Source: Acidobacteriota bacterium (GTDB lineage: Bacteria > Acidobacteriota > Terriglobia > Bryobacterales > Bryobacteraceae). Taken from it: 33,095 nt of DNA. Positions 4,027 through 27,060 of the stretch are shown one piece after another. A program made the translations under genes and the position numbers. The stretch covers positions 1-33,095 of the forward strand of contig SYKU01000399.1 in assembly GCA_005808865.1 (NCBI GenBank). The letters run 5' to 3'. Position 1 is the stretch's first letter. The number at the start of each line of letters is the position of its first letter. The notes beneath the pieces were generated by a model. It had not been told where the DNA came from. It searched no databases and saw only the letters and a program-made list of their open reading frames with translations.

Positions 4027-7000
4027 TCATTGAACTGAAACCAGCACGGTATTACTGTCCACTCCTGCTTGCCGGATGGCAAGCGGCAAGTCGAGACCCG
4101 GAGGCACCGCCTGCGGAAGCGCCAGATTTACCTGGTAAAGCCCAATGAATCCAGGCGTGAGGCCCGCAAACGCCACCGGGAATTCCTGTCCGTTCAAAAG
4201 CGCGGTCACCCGGTTGCGGGCCACCGAAACGTTACCCTGCCGGCTCACGGATCCAAGCCCCGTTCCATATATCACGACCACTTGACCGCGTCTCGCCGCG
4301 GTAACCGGTGAATTGATCTTTCCGTCCTGGTTCACAACCGCTCCGCGGCCAGGTCCGCCGATCAGGAAAATGCCCGGAGCCGACTCGCTTACGTTCACCG
4401 GCTGCTCAGATACGCCGAACGCCGAGCGGATACGCAATGTATATGTTCCCGCGCCCAAATCCGCCGGGACTTCCGCGTTCACCTGGAACGGCGTTGCGGC
4501 GATGGTGCGAACCGTGGCCCCGTTCATCTCCACCGTGGTGTCCTTCCCGCCGCCCGCCAATCCTGATCCGAAGATCGCCATCAACCCTCCAGGTGCAATT
4601 CCTGTGCCAAACGTGGCGGCGTTTACCACGCCGGTCGCGGAGAAGGTAGCCGCAAGTGGCGAGACGGCAATTTGAGAAGCTGTTCTTGTGACACTGTAAG
4701 ATGTTGATTCCAGAGCCTGGATCTCTTGTCTTGCACCGGCACTGGAAAGGTCGGTAATCGTGAAACGGTAACCGGCGTTACTGGTCAGTTGGTAGGACGG
4801 CTGGACACCGTCACAAAAGAGGAAGAATGACACAGGCGGTGGGACAGATGGGACATCTCCGGTTGCAACGGCCATATCCGGAAGCATCAGAGGTCTCCCG
4901 CAGGCGCCTGCGCTCGAAGCGAGGCCGGGAGGAGTGCCACCGCCGATCGAAGGAGCCGCAAGCAGAAAACCCGTCGCACTGGGCGCTCTGGGCAGTAGCC
5001 GCACCACGTTCCCGATCGTCCCGCTCCACTTCGCGGAGCCGATCGCAAAGCCTGACAGATACTCCCCAAGAGTGCGGCGGCCAAATGAGGGGTTCGGATC
5101 GTGAATGAGCAGCTCACCGTCCCCGGCGGCGCCAATCGCGACTACGGCGTGTCCACCGGCCGCAACACCGTCCCGCGAAAGCGCCAGAACGATAAGGACT
5201 GGATCGCCGGCCGATACCAGATCGCGGATGGCGGTCTCCGCGGGATTTTCAACTGAGATGTCGAGCGCTCCTCCAACAAACGCACCCGCGCGCCACAGAT
5301 TCAATATCTGATCGCCCGATGCCGCGCCATTCGAAAGGAAACCGTCACAGACCTTTTCGCCCTGCGTGTCAAGCGCGCAGAACGTCTTCAGGTAATTGTT
5401 CATCTGAGCGACCTCGGCAGGGCCGTTGGGGGAAGGCAGCTCGGCGCGAATCTGATGGTAGCGGAGCAGAGAAGCGGTCGCGGCAAGCAGCGCCCCTTTT
5501 TGCGCGATGCCTGCGGAACCGTTTCCAAGCGCTCCGTCCACAGCCTGCGTCAGCCTGGGAAAATCGTTCAAGGACGACGCGGCCGCGCGCTCGCTAAACG
5601 TGCTCACCTGGCCCGCGGATTCCGCGGTCACCAAGGTGATTCCTTCAACCCGCGGAAGCCGGAGAGCCGTTTCGGCCTGCCCGTTTTCGTCTGTTGCGGT
5701 GGAGGTTATGCCTAGTGATGCCCCCGATGACGCGCGAAACACGACTTGTGAACCGGCAATGGGGTTGCCGGCATCGTCCTGGAGCCGGACGCGCAGCGTG
5801 GCTGGCAGCAGCGACCCGGGCACGCCTGCCTGCGCGTCTCCGCGAACCTTGGATAACCGGAGCCGGCTATCGGCCACCGACCTGATCTGGTAAACCACTT
5901 GCGCGGTAGCGGTACCGCCAATCTCGACGGCTCTGATGGTGATTGAAGCCGTGGCTGCATTACCCGGGATGAAGGATTCCCAGGAGTACGCCCCGTTGGC
6001 TGTGCTAACGACAAAATCCGGCTGGCCGGTTACGGAGACGCGCAGGGTCGCACCCACGCTGAATCCGTTGACGGATACCCTGACGCGCCCGCCCGCCACC
6101 GCCGCCGGAGGAGTCGCCGCGACCGACGGCCTGCGTTCGCTCTCGTGAGCCTGAGCCGTCGTCGAGCCGGCCGCGTAATCGAAATACCCGCCTTCGAAAT
6201 TCTGCCTGCGTAATCCCGCCGCCGCAAACTCATCGCTCACAGGTGCGCCGAAGATTCCCGCGGCGCCGTTGAGCTCGCGATAGCGCGCCAGAATGGGTCC
6301 GGCGACGAAATACGCCTGGCCGGCGCGCGGTCCGCCCGAGATCCCAAGCAGCATGCCATTCCGGAATGACTGCGCGATTCCGGGCGTGGAACTGAAGGTA
6401 AGGAAAACGGAGGACTCTTCAACCGGCAGGCCGGCTGCGCCGGTTTCGTATCCGAGATTGGCCCACTTTGTAAGAATGATTCCCGACACGGTACGGGCGG
6501 GAGTCCCCGCCAACGCCGCATTTTCAAAAAGCTGCCGGCCCGTTGCCGTGGCGTCGGAAATGGGGTGCCCGAGGCTGCCCGCGGGTCCCCCCAACTCCTC
6601 GTAGCGGGGAAGGAACTCCCCGCCAATCACGAACGCCGCGGAGAGCCTGTCGGGCTTGGCAACAAGGTAACGAACCGCCGTGGCTGCTCCGGCAGACTGA
6701 AGATCCTGCACGTAGCCGGTGCCCGCGCGGCGAACGGGATTCGCGGCCGGCACTTGAACTTTGAGACCGTTACGGGCGACCGCGTCCTGAAAGGATTGCT
6801 CGATCGCGGAAGACGGCGCCCCTTCTCCGATCTGGCAACACGGCGCGGTTACGATCACCTGCAGCGACGGACTTACCTTGCCCTCGCTACTCGCGGCGAT
6901 AAGAGCCGTCCCGCCGCCCGCCGCACGCACGACTGCCGTGAGGCCGCTCGCCTGAACCGTCGCAACGCGGCCGTTCGTCGTTGTCCAGTTGACCTGCCGG

Positions 7001-21647: not shown

Positions 21648-22524
21648 CACGCCGAGCAAATCGGAGCCGCGATCAGACGCATCGAACAGGCCGAAATCAA
21701 TCGTAGCGTCCAACTGCAGTTGCCGATTCCCGTGGGCGCCCCGATTCCGGTCCTCTATGTCGAGATCGACGGTACCGGCATCCGTGTCGTCAAGAAAGAA
21801 CTACAAGGCCCCTCCGGCATTAAATAGAGGGCCAACCGGCACGCACGCGCGAAGTAAAACTGAGCTGTGTCTTCACTTCCTCCAGCGTCGATGAGGAAGG
21901 CAATCCGATTCGAGATCCCCATTCCACCACCTACACCGGCGCCATCGACACCGCCGAGGAATTTGCCTGCCGCATCTACCGGGAGGCTTTTCAACGAGGC
22001 TGGAGCCGCGCCAAGATCAAAGTGATCCTTGGCTTGGCGATGGCGCTATCTGGATCTGGAATCTTGCCGCCGATCAATTCCCTGGTGCAATTCTTATCGT
22101 GGACTTCTACCACGCCGAACACCTTCACAAGATTTCCAGACTGCTGTCTCCTGGTGACGAAGCCGCACGCCTGCGTTGGGTGTCTTTCATCGTCGATCGA
22201 CTCAAAGCCGGCGACATCGAATCCATTGTGGCGACCCTTCGCTCTTTGGCCGGGGAGCGACCTGATCTTGCCGACAAGCTCAATACCGAAGCCGATTACT
22301 TCGAGCGAAATACCGAAAAGATGCGCTATCCCAAGTTTCGCGAGCAGGACCTTTTCATCGGCTCTGGCGTCATCGAAGCTGGCTGCAGGTCACTCATCGG
22401 CTCCCGGCTCAAGCAATCTGGCTTGTTCTGGACCGTCGAAGGCGCCAACCGAATCATCGCCCTTCGCTGCTGCCGCCTCAGCGGCAGGTTCGAGGATTTC
22501 TGGGAAGGGCAAGCGGCTGCCTAG
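21648..22524 (+). pseudogene. ISKra4-type transposase remnant, frameshifted
   Basis: Three segments lie in three frames. The first (to ~21823) reads HAEQIGAAIRRIEQAEINRS and PIPVLYVEIDGTGIRVVKKE and carries the first catalytic Asp. The second (from ~21830 to 22033) reads GQPARTREVKLSCVFTSSS and TYTGAIDTAEEFACRIYREA. The third (to the TAG at 22522-22524) reads GDGAIWIWNLAADQFPGAIL, VDFYHAEHLHK and FIGSGVIEAGCRSLIGSRLK, then QSGLFWTVEGANRIIALRCC. The second shift is caused by a tandem TTGGC duplication (22029-22033, 22034-22038). The first junction has an in-frame TAG at 21825. The N-terminal half is deleted. Not functional. Confidence 0.88.
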
Positions 22525-22549
22525 TCGTCACTCTTAAGACGCACACCCC
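22525..22549 (-). repeat. Right terminal inverted repeat of the insertion sequence
   Basis: Reverse complement of the left repeat at 22 of 25 positions. It starts directly after the transposase TAG stop and is followed by the right copy of AAAGAGA. Confidence 0.88.
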
Positions 22550-22556
22550 AAAGAGA
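22550..22556. repeat. Target site duplication, right copy
   Basis: AAAGAGA, identical to 21585-21591 at the other end of the insertion sequence. Confidence 0.85.
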
Positions 22557-22845
22557 TCCAGACCATCCGGGCACTGCTCAAAACCGCCGACATCCCGGTT
22601 GCGGAAATAGCCGCCCGCTTTGGTTTGGAGTCGCCCGGTCTACTCTGTACCGCGCCGTCGTCATCCCTGCCGCCTGACCCTCCAACCGGTAACCGAAGTG
22701 CCAGGGCAAAGAGCCTTTTGAGCGGAAAACACAGGAAAACTTCTACACTCCGCGTTCTCGGGTTCTATCTATCGGAACCATGCCAACTTCCGGATGCGTA
22801 AGCCAGGATCTGTCCGCGTTCAATCGAGGAAAACGGGTTCGCCGG

Positions 22846-23523
22846 TTACCGGGCCAATTCGATTTGCCGTCCGGCCAACCGCCACGCGAGCCCGCGCAAC
22901 TGATTCGGCCAGGCCCTTTCCATCCAGATGACGGCGGTGGCGGGAATCATCGCCCAGAGGGAGTGGCCGGCGGCCGCGCACACGAGCATCAGTGCCCAGC
23001 AACTGAGCCAGCAGTTGCCGCCGATCGTCAAACCGTAACGAAGGCAATCGAGGCTGGCGCGGATGCCCGCCGGCGCGAGCGGCGCGGTCCGATGGCAGCG
23101 GCGGAGGCCCGATTTCTTAAGGGGCGTCCACTGCCATGCCGCCGCCACCAGGAAGGTTAGGGCAAGGAATAACCGGGATTCTCCGCGCTGAGGGGTGACC
23201 AGCGTTTCCACGGCCACGCCGTACCCTAGCCACACCGCGCAGTAACCCGCGAGAAACAGGACAATGGCGCGGTTTCGCATCCGCCAGAGGCTGCGCGCGG
23301 CGACGAAGCGGACTGGTGCGATCAGCATCGGGAACATCATCGCGGACGTCATGTTCAGCCAATTCAGCGCCACCAGCGAGGGCGCGGCCTCGTGCCCCCC
23401 GTGGGCGTGATCCGCATGGCCGCCGGGGGTGAGGGCCGCGGCGGCAATCGCAAGCCATGCAGCGGCGCTCAGCACAAGGCTCCACCATTCCGGGTGGCGC
23501 CAGAACGCGAGCTGCCATCTCAT
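22846..23523 (-). CDS. DUF2182 predicted metal-binding membrane protein
   Basis: A 225-residue integral membrane protein with about six hydrophobic segments. A His-rich loop at residues 35-44 (GHADHAHGGHE) follows the first helix. The DUF2182 core follows: LNWLNMTSAMMFPMLIAPVR, GYCAVWLGYGVAVE, WQWTPLKKSGLRRCHRTAP, the GNCWLSCWALMLV segment and VIWMERAWP. The family is described as predicted metal-binding, function unknown. Its ATG overlaps the tyrosinase stop (ATGA, 23520-23523), so the two proteins are made together. I infer a copper-related role such as supply to the tyrosinase or sensing, but this is not shown by sequence. Confidence 0.85.
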   Translation of the reverse strand: MRWQLAFWRHPEWWSLVLSAAAWLAIAAAALTPGGHADHAHGGHEAAPSLVALNWLNMTSAMMFPMLIAPVRFVAARSLWRMRNRAIVLFLAGYCAVWLGYGVAVETLVTPQRGESRLFLALTFLVAAAWQWTPLKKSGLRRCHRTAPLAPAGIRASLDCLRYGLTIGGNCWLSCWALMLVCAAAGHSLWAMIPATAVIWMERAWPNQLRGLAWRLAGRQIELAR

Positions 23524-24992
23524 GAGTAGTAGAGGCTCACCCGCCCGACGGTGACCGTCTTTACGCCAACGCCCGCCCGGTCGACGCCCGGGCGTTCATG
23601 CGGCACGAAGGTGACTTGGAGCGAGTTCGGATTCCATTCTGCGGTCCGTAAGAGGCTGGTGACGTCGATTGAATAGTGCAAACCGTCACCGCGATGCCCG
23701 CGATCCTCCCGCGAAGCTTCCACCACGCCAAACAGCGGAATGATCCCCGCTTCGAGATCGGGACGGTCCTCGGGCCCGATGCCGGCGGGAAGATTGACAT
23801 ACACCAGATAGCTCTCCGTCGGGCCTTCCGCTGCGGTGATGTTCTCGAGGTTTAAATGAACGCTGGGAGATGGCGATTTGGCCGCCGGCCCGAGGGGCGC
23901 GGTTGTAGCGAACTGGACCGTGACCCGGCTCGCACCGAGGACAATCGGCGCGCTGGTCGCTCCAACCATTTCTGGGACGGCGCCCGGGTCCGGGGCCGCC
24001 GGCGTCACGACACCCGGAAATGGGTCGGACACGTCTTCATACTCATAGCCGAGTAAAGGCGCCGTGGTGTCCGCCAGTTGTTCGGACTTCACCCCCACGG
24101 CCTTGCCGTCCGCGTCGTGGAAGTACATGGTGAGAATCGAGCGCCACCCGGGTTCACCCGGATTCGCATTCGCCGAGCGGCGGAGCCACACTTCCCACAG
24201 GCGGTCAATGTTGCAGTGATGCACCCAAAATAGCGGATCAAGCCCAGCGGTTGTGAACGAGGAACTCATCCAGCCCTTGGGACCACCGACGGCAACGTGC
24301 ATGGTCCCATGCGGGCGGCTCTCGCAGGCCCCTGCGTGTCCATTGTTGTGGTTGAACCAGGTTCTGGGTCCACCAAATCCAACCTGGCCGCCGATGCTCG
24401 AGCTGGCGAACTGAGGCTTCAGAAGGCAGGACAAATCGACGTCGCTGGCGGTGGCGATGTCCAGGCCCTTGTTGGCGTTCGGGGATCGCGGGATGTCCGT
24501 TTCCGTGCCCAACGTTTGTTTATAGATACGCAGAGGGTTGGTGGTTCCATCCGGCAGAGTGCTTGCGTAGAATGCCGGTGGCAGGCGGCGCGCGTCCTTA
24601 TTGGTGGCGTCGCTGTAATTCCAGTAAGGCAGGGCCCAATCGGCAGGCCCCCCGAGTTGCCGCACCGCTTCGGCGACAATGCGCTCGAAGTACAGGAGAT
24701 AGGCCCGGTGGAAGGGAAAGAAAAACCACGAATCGTGCTGGCACTGCGTCCAGAACGTGGCCTGCTCCGATAGCGAGGGAAGCGTTTCGCCGGAGACGGC
24801 TAGCGGATCATTCGCAGGAAAATGTTCGTGAATTGCCGCCTGGTAGCGCCAACTGGTCGGATCCGTGATGGCCCGCCCCTGCATGGCGGCCACAGCTCGC
24901 GCGTACCAGAGCAGCACAGGGTGCCACGGGTCCTCATTGCTCAGCTTCCAGACATCCTGCCGGATTCGAATTCCTTTCTTCCCATTCTGCAT
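23520..24992 (-). CDS. Type 3 copper tyrosinase/catechol oxidase-like protein
   Basis: A 490-residue protein from the ATG at 24992, with GGAG 6 bases upstream; a GTG at 25004 is an in-frame alternative. The CuA site has His86 and His95 (CQHDSWFFFPFHRAYLLYFE), spaced nine apart as in tyrosinases, with the first CuA His at 55 or 57 (AIHEHF). Cys84, two residues before His86, may form the Cys-His thioether known in some type 3 copper enzymes. The CuB site has His228 and His232 (RPHGTMHVAVGG) and His258 in DPLFWVHHCNIDRLWEVW. The C-terminal ~160 residues form a beta-rich domain (SYLVYVNLPAG, NPNSLQVTFVPHERPG) resembling the lid domains of polyphenol oxidases. No signal peptide. It probably oxidises phenols to quinones. 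It starts 48-60 bases after mqnE. Confidence 0.92.
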   Translation of the reverse strand: MQNGKKGIRIRQDVWKLSNEDPWHPVLLWYARAVAAMQGRAITDPTSWRYQAAIHEHFPANDPLAVSGETLPSLSEQATFWTQCQHDSWFFFPFHRAYLLYFERIVAEAVRQLGGPADWALPYWNYSDATNKDARRLPPAFYASTLPDGTTNPLRIYKQTLGTETDIPRSPNANKGLDIATASDVDLSCLLKPQFASSSIGGQVGFGGPRTWFNHNNGHAGACESRPHGTMHVAVGGPKGWMSSSFTTAGLDPLFWVHHCNIDRLWEVWLRRSANANPGEPGWRSILTMYFHDADGKAVGVKSEQLADTTAPLLGYEYEDVSDPFPGVVTPAAPDPGAVPEMVGATSAPIVLGASRVTVQFATTAPLGPAAKSPSPSVHLNLENITAAEGPTESYLVYVNLPAGIGPEDRPDLEAGIIPLFGVVEASREDRGHRGDGLHYSIDVTSLLRTAEWNPNSLQVTFVPHERPGVDRAGVGVKTVTVGRVSLYYS

Positions 24993-25036: not shown

Positions 25037-25057
25037 TTACTAACTTAATAACTTATA
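25037..25057 (-). promoter_or_regulatory. AT-rich direct-repeat site ahead of the tyrosinase gene
   Basis: Reading the minus strand, AAGTTA occurs twice, two bases apart, within TATAAGTTATTAAGTTAGTA. This is the only AT-rich spot in the ~50 bases between mqnE and the tyrosinase. It overlaps the mqnE stop codon (25055-25053). It could be a promoter element or regulator site for the tyrosinase-DUF2182 pair. Confidence 0.28.
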
Positions 25058-26171
25058 CCAGTACGGTAAATGTCGATTCGGTGCGCGACACCGGGCGGTA
25101 AAGAGTATCGCGCTCCACCGGTTCCCGCCCCGCGGCGCGAATCAGCCGAAGCAACTCTCCCCGCCGCATCGACTGGCTCGTGGTCGCGCCGGCGTCGTGA
25201 TAAATCTTCTCTTCGACCACCGTTCCGTCCAGATCGTCCGCGCCGAAGCGCTGCGCAATTTGCGCCACCGATGGCGTCATCATCACCCAGTAGGCCTTGA
25301 TGTGCGGAATGTTGTCGAGCATCAGCCGCGAAATCGCGATGTTCCTGATATCCAGGAATCCGGTGGTCTTGGGAATGTGCCGCAGCGCCGTGTTGTCAGG
25401 ATGGAACGCCAGCGGAATGTAGGTCTGAAAACCCGCCGTTTCGTCCTGAAGCCCGCGAAGTTTCAGCAGGTGGTCCACGCGGTCTTCTTCATTCTCGATG
25501 TGTCCATACAGCATGGTGCAGTTCGAATGCAGTCCCAACCGGTGCGCGATGCGCGCCGTCTGGAGCCACTCCTCACCCGTAATCTTGTGGTCGCAGATGA
25601 TTCGCCGGACGCGGTCGGAGAAAATCTCCGCTCCGCCGCCGGGCAATGAATCCACTCCCGCGTCTTTCAGGCGCTGCAATGTCTCTTCGATGCTGATGCG
25701 GGTGCGCTCGGCGAAGTAGCCGACCTCGACCATCGTGAACGCCTTGAGGTGAACCTGCGGAAAGCGTTCCTTTAGCCCGCGCAGCATCTGGCAATACCAG
25801 TCGAGCGTGAGTTCCGGATGCAATCCGCCAACGATATGGAATTCGGTAATCGACTCGCTCCATCCCTGGCCTGCCACTTCCCAGACCTGGTCGAGCGACA
25901 TCGTGTAGGAGTTTGGATCCTTCGTCCGCTTTCCGAAGGCGCACAGCTTGCAACTCGCGACGCAGACGTCCGTGGGGTTGATGTGGCGGTTCACATTGAA
26001 GTACGTAACCGCGCCGTGCAGCCGTTCCCGCACCCGATTGGCCATGTAGCCGACCGTGAGGATGTCCGGCGTACGGAAGAGGGCAAGGCCGTCTTCGTAG
26101 TTGAGACGCACTCCGGCTTCGACCTTTTCGAGGATCGGCTTCAGCCGGTTATCGTCAATAACGACTTGCAT
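25053..26171 (-). CDS. mqnE: Aminofutalosine synthase (radical SAM)
   Basis: A 372-residue radical SAM enzyme of the MqnE/MqnC group. The iron-sulfur cluster Cys residues are Cys70-x3-Cys74-x2-Cys77 in PTDVCVASCKLCAFG. Other family segments are ITEFHIVGGLHPELTLDWY, GVDSLPGGGAEIFSD, HRLGLHSNCTMLYGHIE and FQTYIPLAFHPDNT. MqnE forms aminofutalosine from 3-[(1-carboxyvinyl)oxy]benzoate and SAM, an early step of the futalosine route to menaquinone, in the cytoplasm. The gene overlaps the preceding prenyltransferase gene by 17 bases and lacks its own clear ribosome site, so translation is coupled. The closely related MqnC is the alternative, but the text fits MqnE better. Confidence 0.9.
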   Translation of the reverse strand: MQVVIDDNRLKPILEKVEAGVRLNYEDGLALFRTPDILTVGYMANRVRERLHGAVTYFNVNRHINPTDVCVASCKLCAFGKRTKDPNSYTMSLDQVWEVAGQGWSESITEFHIVGGLHPELTLDWYCQMLRGLKERFPQVHLKAFTMVEVGYFAERTRISIEETLQRLKDAGVDSLPGGGAEIFSDRVRRIICDHKITGEEWLQTARIAHRLGLHSNCTMLYGHIENEEDRVDHLLKLRGLQDETAGFQTYIPLAFHPDNTALRHIPKTTGFLDIRNIAISRLMLDNIPHIKAYWVMMTPSVAQIAQRFGADDLDGTVVEEKIYHDAGATTSQSMRRGELLRLIRAAGREPVERDTLYRPVSRTESTFTVLV

Positions 26172-27060
26172 ACTGAAAGAAGAGAATATCGGCGGCCCAG
26201 AAGAAAAAGAATACCACGCTCACATACCCGTTCATGGTGAAGAAGGCCGCGTTGACACGCGAAAAATCCGTCGGCGATACCAGGCGGTGCTCCCATGCCA
26301 GCACCATCGCGACGGCGAAGATGCCGAGGTTTCCGGGCAGGTGGAGCTGAAACGCGGAACTGAGCAGCGTAAGACACACCAGCATGGCGAGATGCAGCAG
26401 GCGCGCCAAACGCAGAGCCCAGGCAAGGCCGAGCCAACTGGGAATGCTGAACAGACCTTCGTCGCGGTCGAATTCGAAATCCTGGCAGGAATAGATGATG
26501 TCGAACCCGGCGGTCCAAACGGTGACTGCCGCGGTGAGCCAGAGGATTCGCGGGTCGAGCGAGCCGCGAATCGCGATCCACGCCGCGGCGGGCGCAATGC
26601 CAAGCGCGAAACCCAGCACCAGGTGCGAGAATGGTGTGAACCGTTTTGTGAACGAATAGAAAAAGACGACGGCGAGCGCGAGCGGCGCGAGCGCGAGACA
26701 AAGCGGATTCAGTTCGCGCGCCGCGGCGAGGAAGACAAGCGACGACGCCCCGACGAACGCCCAGCCGAAGGCGGGTGTAAGCTGTCCCGAGGGAATATGA
26801 CGCATCCTGGTACGCGGATTGCGCGCGTCGGCGCGCGCGTCGACGAGCCGGTTGAACGCCATCGCCGCCGAGCGTGCGCCCACCATCGCGACGACGATCC
26901 AGCCAAGCTTTCCCCACGGAAATCGATCGCCGCCGTCTTCCCTGACGGCAAGCAGCGCCCCCGTTAGAGCGAACGGCAGCGCGAATATCGAGTGCTCGAA
27001 CTTGATCATTTCGAGCGTGAGCAGCAGGCGTTTGAGCATGAACGGAAAAGAGGTTACCAT
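26155..27060 (-). CDS. mqnP: UbiA-type prenyltransferase, probable menaquinone pathway MqnP
   Basis: A 301-residue integral membrane protein with about eight helices. The UbiA prenyl-diphosphate motif is Asn70-x3-Asp74-x3-Asp78 in NRLVDARADARNPRT, and the second Asp-rich motif is DFEFDRDEGLFSIP at 194-207. The family attaches a polyprenyl chain to an aromatic ring; next to mqnE the likely acceptor is the naphthoate intermediate of futalosine-dependent menaquinone synthesis. The ATG at 27060 is used; an in-frame ATG at 27039 (MLKRLLLTLEMIKFEHSIF) is also plausible. Its start is only 8 bases from the start of the opposite-strand DUF192 gene, so its promoter must lie inside that coding region. 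A 4-hydroxybenzoate role is the alternative. Confidence 0.87.
   Translation of the reverse strand: MVTSFPFMLKRLLLTLEMIKFEHSIFALPFALTGALLAVREDGGDRFPWGKLGWIVVAMVGARSAAMAFNRLVDARADARNPRTRMRHIPSGQLTPAFGWAFVGASSLVFLAAARELNPLCLALAPLALAVVFFYSFTKRFTPFSHLVLGFALGIAPAAAWIAIRGSLDPRILWLTAAVTVWTAGFDIIYSCQDFEFDRDEGLFSIPSWLGLAWALRLARLLHLAMLVCLTLLSSAFQLHLPGNLGIFAVAMVLAWEHRLVSPTDFSRVNAAFFTMNGYVSVVFFFFWAADILFFQYASRY
27032..27060 (+). promoter_or_regulatory. Candidate promoter for the DUF192 gene, overlapping the prenyltransferase start
   Basis: TTGAGC (27032-27037) and TACCAT (27055-27060) are 17 bases apart, each four of six to consensus. The ATG at 27069 is 8 bases downstream, so the transcript would be leaderless. 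TACCAT contains the complementary start codon of the prenyltransferase gene. Confidence 0.4.

Follow-up and report, generated by a model that had tools for sequence, protein, structure and literature searches.

The analysed stretch of DNA, hereafter the window, comprised 33,095 nucleotides of contig SYKU01000399.1 from an acidobacterial genome of the Bryobacteraceae (GCA_005808865.1). A gene for a PpoB1-type tyrosinase is followed in it, on the same strand and directly, by a gene for a PpoB2-type membrane protein, and the two share the bases ATGA (Table 1). The profiles of the two families, PF00264 and PF09948, each gave one match in the source genome, which is 87% complete, and further copies may lie in the missing part. 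Scans for promoters and terminators around the gene pair yielded nothing above chance.

Table 1. Features of the tyrosinase-ppoB2 locus (window coordinates)
Feature	Position	Strand	Details and basis
Tyrosinase, PpoB1-type (type-3 copper phenol oxidase)	23520..24992	-	490 aa ORF, PF00264
Lid domain (PF25271/DUF7868) at tyrosinase C-terminus	23526..23975	-	Residues 340-489; Pfam and HcTyr1 alignment
Membrane copper chaperone, PpoB2-type (PF09948, formerly DUF2182)	22846..23523	-	225 aa, six predicted transmembrane helices
ATGA overlap of ppoB2 start and tyrosinase stop	23520..23523	-	Sequence
His-rich loop GHADHAHGGHE, PpoB2 residues 35-45	23389..23421	-	Predicted outside; variable among relatives
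Helix 2 Met motif W55..M58...M62-M63.P65	23329..23361	-	Conservation
Cys143-His144	23092..23097	-	Conservation in the tyrosinase-linked clade; predicted cytoplasmic
Helix 5 C171...C175...M179	22987..23013	-	Conserved 98-100% in both PF09948 clades

The surroundings of the pair were also inspected. The upstream neighbors of the tyrosinase, at a distance of about 60 bases, are mqnE and an mqnP-like prenyltransferase gene of the futalosine menaquinone pathway (25053-27060, reverse strand). No phmmer match to either was found in the loci from other genomes, although this was a weak test, since the contig of the nearest relative begins at the tyrosinase; a link with the menaquinone genes was therefore dropped and their position was treated as incidental. 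Past the 3' end of ppoB2 lies the C-terminal remnant of an ISKra4-family transposase (22099-22524, forward strand), followed at approximately 22550-22675 on the same strand by what resembles the end of a recombinase helix-turn-helix. The stretch 22099-22675 thus reads like decayed mobile DNA.

The assignment of the tyrosinase rests on a PF00264 domain with six copper-binding histidines and on a C-terminal lid, both of which are present. The Pfam matches were 9.9e-35 for PF00264 (residues 46-271) and 6.1e-28 for DUF7868. The copper ligands H55, H86, and H95 (CuA) and H228, H232, and H258/H259 (CuB) were invariant among nine aligned relatives, and a CQH motif was also found. No signal peptide was apparent on visual inspection of the N-terminus (MQNGKKGIRIRQDVWKLS...), which is also true of nearly all relatives. 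The residue after HB1 is Gly (H228-G229, window 24306-24311); among 85 relatives, this position was occupied by Gly in 28 and by Asn in 48. Glycine at this place has been tied to weaker monophenolase activity. Its presence after the first CuB histidine suggests that the enzyme may act as a catechol oxidase rather than possess strong monophenolase activity.

The product of the downstream gene matched the PF09948 profile with 84.6 bits (1.1e-23), against a cut-off of 28.7. Further features in line with the family are a predicted polytopic membrane topology, seen from the helices and the charge pattern, and the presence of the conserved Met, Cys, and His residues. AlphaFold2 gave a confident six-helix model, with a pLDDT of 89.8 and a pTM of 0.85. 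A search for fold relatives of this model returned none at E <= 0.001 with Foldseek and none at Z >= 5 with VIA, which does not prove a new fold; with no solved relative at hand, a metal path through the protein would be without structural precedent, and there is no mechanism to borrow. All 81 PpoB2 sequences examined had their lysine and arginine residues clustered at the two termini and in loops 2 and 4. According to the positive-inside rule, this pattern would make both termini and Cys143-His144 cytoplasmic and put the His-rich loop outside. A tyrosinase without a signal peptide would share the side of the membrane with Cys143-His144.

The conservation of individual residues was calculated for 82 tyrosinase-linked PpoB2 proteins. 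In helix 2, the values were 98% for both M58 and M62 and 82% for M63; C143 and H144 were conserved at 91 and 93%, respectively, and C171, C175, M179, and M192 at 100, 98, 100, and 93%. The residues of these three kinds that are conserved are found in and beside the predicted membrane helices. The His-rich loop behaved differently: 28 of the 82 proteins had no histidine at all among the 45 residues preceding W55, and 32 had at least three. Because of this poor conservation, the loop was rejected as the copper site. An earlier note on this DNA had correctly recorded the ATGA overlap, the GHADHAHGGHE loop, and the lack of a visible signal peptide in the tyrosinase; however, it took the loop as the key copper feature, which is not supported, since one in three of the relatives linked to a tyrosinase lacks histidines there and the positions conserved instead (82-100%) are the Met, Cys, and Cys-His residues elsewhere in the protein.

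The adjacency of the two genes, for which the earlier note had proposed a genome survey, was explored at two levels. The window's class was surveyed in 299 genomes; a tyrosinase match was found in 31, a PF09948 match in 44, and both in nine. In eight of these nine, the genes were adjacent, on the same strand, and with the tyrosinase first, which gave nine pairs in all. No PF09948 gene was found within 1.5 kb of the other tyrosinase types of the class in the loci examined. A scan of approximately 85,000 species genomes with the tyrosinase alignment was then used to select the best 80 loci, and a PpoB2 homolog lay directly 3' of the tyrosinase in 77 of them. The best 80 loci belonged to Acidobacteriota, Pseudomonadota, Actinomycetota, Bacteroidota, Chloroflexota, Armatimonadota, Gemmatimonadota, Verrucomicrobiota, Myxococcota, and Vulcanimicrobiota. 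The three loci without a detectable PpoB2 were L097, L121, and L136, the last of which is cut by a contig end. After de-duplication, 82 distinct pairs remained, of which 78 were separated by no more than 30 nt, 29 overlapped, and 26 overlapped by exactly four bases, as measured with the start codon taken closest to the stop of the preceding gene, a choice that favors short gaps. The pair was also present in four plasmid records, where it is annotated as "tyrosinase family protein" and "DUF2182 domain-containing protein." Thus, the pair recurs massively, across about ten bacterial phyla, and the refuting condition set by the earlier note, absence of the pair from other genomes, clearly fails. 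That the two genes are chance neighbors without a functional link could be argued from the upstream mqnE and mqnP, whose absence from the loci of other genomes shows that neighbors here can be incidental; nevertheless, recurrence on this scale, both in the class and among the best related tyrosinases, refutes such an explanation, and its probability is close to nil.

A two-gene unit of this kind was described more than 15 years ago in a marine bacterium, and the pair of the window belongs to this known system. In Marinomonas mediterranea, PpoB2 transfers copper specifically to the tyrosinase PpoB1, encoded in the same operon, and not to the other copper oxidase, PpoA (PMC2855505). The source is a review by the group behind the Marinomonas work, and the primary papers cited in it are of 2004 and 2007. 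The Pfam name of PF09948 (COG5486) is accordingly "PpoB2, Copper chaperone"; therefore, the family is not unassigned, as the earlier note had it, its role having been published by 2010. No mention of DUF2182, PF09948, or DUF1326 was found in the literature searched. The ppoB operon of M. mediterranea and the pair of the window have in common the two-gene organization, the protein families, the membrane partner, and the tyrosinase type, the last being likened through the enzyme HcTyr1. The Marinomonas host belongs to another phylum, and copper transfer, which is published there, would apply to the pair of the window by homology.

HcTyr1 from Hahella sp. CCB-MM4 (PDB 8b74) was the closest solved relative of the window tyrosinase (E 1.2e-68). 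It is reported to be 44.5% identical to the M. mediterranea tyrosinase Q5VM57 (PMC11609597), which we read as PpoB1. HcTyr1 has the same tyrosinase-plus-lid architecture over nearly its full length; however, the residue after HB1 is Asn instead of Gly. In the lid of HcTyr1, Phe397 plugs the active site (PMC11609597), and the LFG motif of the window lid aligns with the region of this placeholder residue. At the HcTyr1 locus (L148:5001-7152), we found a PpoB2 gene (109.8 bits) directly downstream of the tyrosinase gene. The words "chaperone" and "operon" do not occur in the HcTyr1 paper according to a text search, and the downstream gene seems to be unmentioned there. Crystallisation itself can strip copper from a protein. 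HcTyr1 was expressed alone in E. coli, without PpoB2, and gave a copper-free crystal, while the enzyme was still active (PMC11609597). The copper-free crystal fits a need for PpoB2 but is no proof of it, and since the enzyme made alone was active, it may depend on PpoB2 only under copper scarcity.

Taken together, homology, operon structure, and conservation point to a ppoB-type operon, in which a cytosolic enzyme, a tyrosinase or catechol oxidase bearing a lid, would be served by a copper-handing PpoB2 of the inner membrane; we give this reading a probability of about 0.85. The copper-supply partner suggested by the earlier note was probably right in substance, given the Marinomonas precedent and the recurrence of the pair. 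The arrangement resembles MelC1/MelC2 of Streptomyces, where a dedicated helper from the same operon supplies the tyrosinase with copper. However, MelC1 is a small beta-rich caddie encoded upstream, whereas PpoB2 is helical, resides in the membrane, and is encoded downstream. A search of the source genome with PF06236 (MelC1) gave no match, and no control genome matched either.

A comparison of PF09948 proteins showed that the family is divided into two groups. Profile scores from the survey of the class were 61-103 bits for tyrosinase-linked proteins and 115-231 for the unlinked ones, with the exception of a short fragment (59) and a match below the cut-off (20). On a quick maximum-likelihood tree, for which the unlinked set was drawn only from the window's class, the two groups were split by one branch with an SH-aLRT of 100, and the window PpoB2 fell into the tyrosinase-linked clade. 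Judged by score, Hahella has one protein of each kind. A motif search revealed a neighboring gene of the DUF1326 type, with a CxC...CxC motif, for 24 of 30 unlinked proteins (L035-L064, L073). The DUF1326-linked proteins share the Pfam family and the helix-5 Cys/Met motif with the window PpoB2 but differ from it in extra Cys residues at 139 and 174 and in the absence of a tyrosinase nearby. The position of H144 is occupied in them by Arg or Gln; therefore, the Cys-His pair marks the tyrosinase-linked group. No assigned role was found for the DUF1326-linked clade, which is possibly part of a separate metal-handling pair.

This division bears on whether PpoB2 might be a general copper importer or a copper-resistance protein that merely lies beside the tyrosinase. 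Six membrane helices and a set of candidate copper ligands would suit such a role, and the other clade indeed adjoins DUF1326-like genes and not tyrosinases. However, the tyrosinase-linked clade is almost obligately found beside this tyrosinase type, and the selectivity of the Marinomonas transfer for PpoB1 over PpoA likewise contradicts a general function, which we regard as very improbable.

Besides its place at the tyrosinase C-terminus, as in the window, the lid domain occurred in other arrangements. In two acidobacterial loci (L070/L125 and L071), the tyrosinase has no lid, and the lid is encoded by a separate gene. The PpoB2 of L125 (P0003) combines PF09948 (5e-19) with a C-terminal DUF7868 (PF25271, 4e-22); its gene (L125:6472-7662 = L070:2680-3870, reverse strand) lies beside the lid-less tyrosinase and the separate lid gene. 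The fusion, found in one genome only, hints at a joint function of PpoB2 and the lid. In L071, a stand-alone lid gene with a lipoprotein-like signal (4510-5097, reverse strand) is located between the lid-less, signal-less tyrosinase and PpoB2, and its product is possibly a caddie-like exported partner. Extra stand-alone lid genes were observed beside complete pairs in Bacteroidota, Verrucomicrobiota, and Acinetobacter (L096:7498-7971, L114:6947-7426, L144:7369-7863, and L137:4520-4957).

The fused lid and the operons with free-standing lid genes suggest contact between the lid and PpoB2, and this tyrosinase type lacks signal peptides; PpoB2 could therefore serve chiefly as a dock or scaffold keeping the tyrosinase at the membrane via its lid, with copper binding being secondary. 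However, Met and Cys residues conserved at 98-100% within the helices fit metal handling better, the published role of the Marinomonas protein is copper transfer (PMC2855505), and the fused lid comes from a single genome; such docking thus appears improbable. Under the preferred reading of a copper-handing PpoB2, the protein would take up copper on the outer face, aided by the His-rich loop where it is present. The metal would then pass along the Met and Cys residues of helices 2 and 5 (M58, M62, M63, C171, C175, and M179) to the cytoplasmic Cys143-His144, from which it would be handed to the apo-tyrosinase, made alongside through coupled translation. We infer this route, its direction, and direct contact between PpoB2 and the tyrosinase. 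More tentatively, the DUF7868 lid might itself be the point of contact, with the chaperone recognizing the lid and loading copper via Cys143-His144, after which the lid would open or be cleaved; we consider this possible but rather doubtful. If true, it would represent a membrane-based counterpart of the Streptomyces caddie mechanism and would explain why lids are found as separate genes or fused to PpoB2.

In conclusion, what is new here is the massive recurrence of the pair, the variability of the His-rich loop, the split of PF09948 into two clades, the separate and fused lids, and the PpoB2 gene downstream of HcTyr1. The copper-delivery partner described in one marine bacterium accompanies a large class of bacterial tyrosinases as a rule, although annotation pipelines still call it DUF2182. 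Tyrosinases of the PpoB1 class that are made without PpoB2 may carry too little copper. The conserved residues of PpoB2 and its fusion with the lid offer direct handles on how a membrane protein would load a cytosolic copper enzyme.
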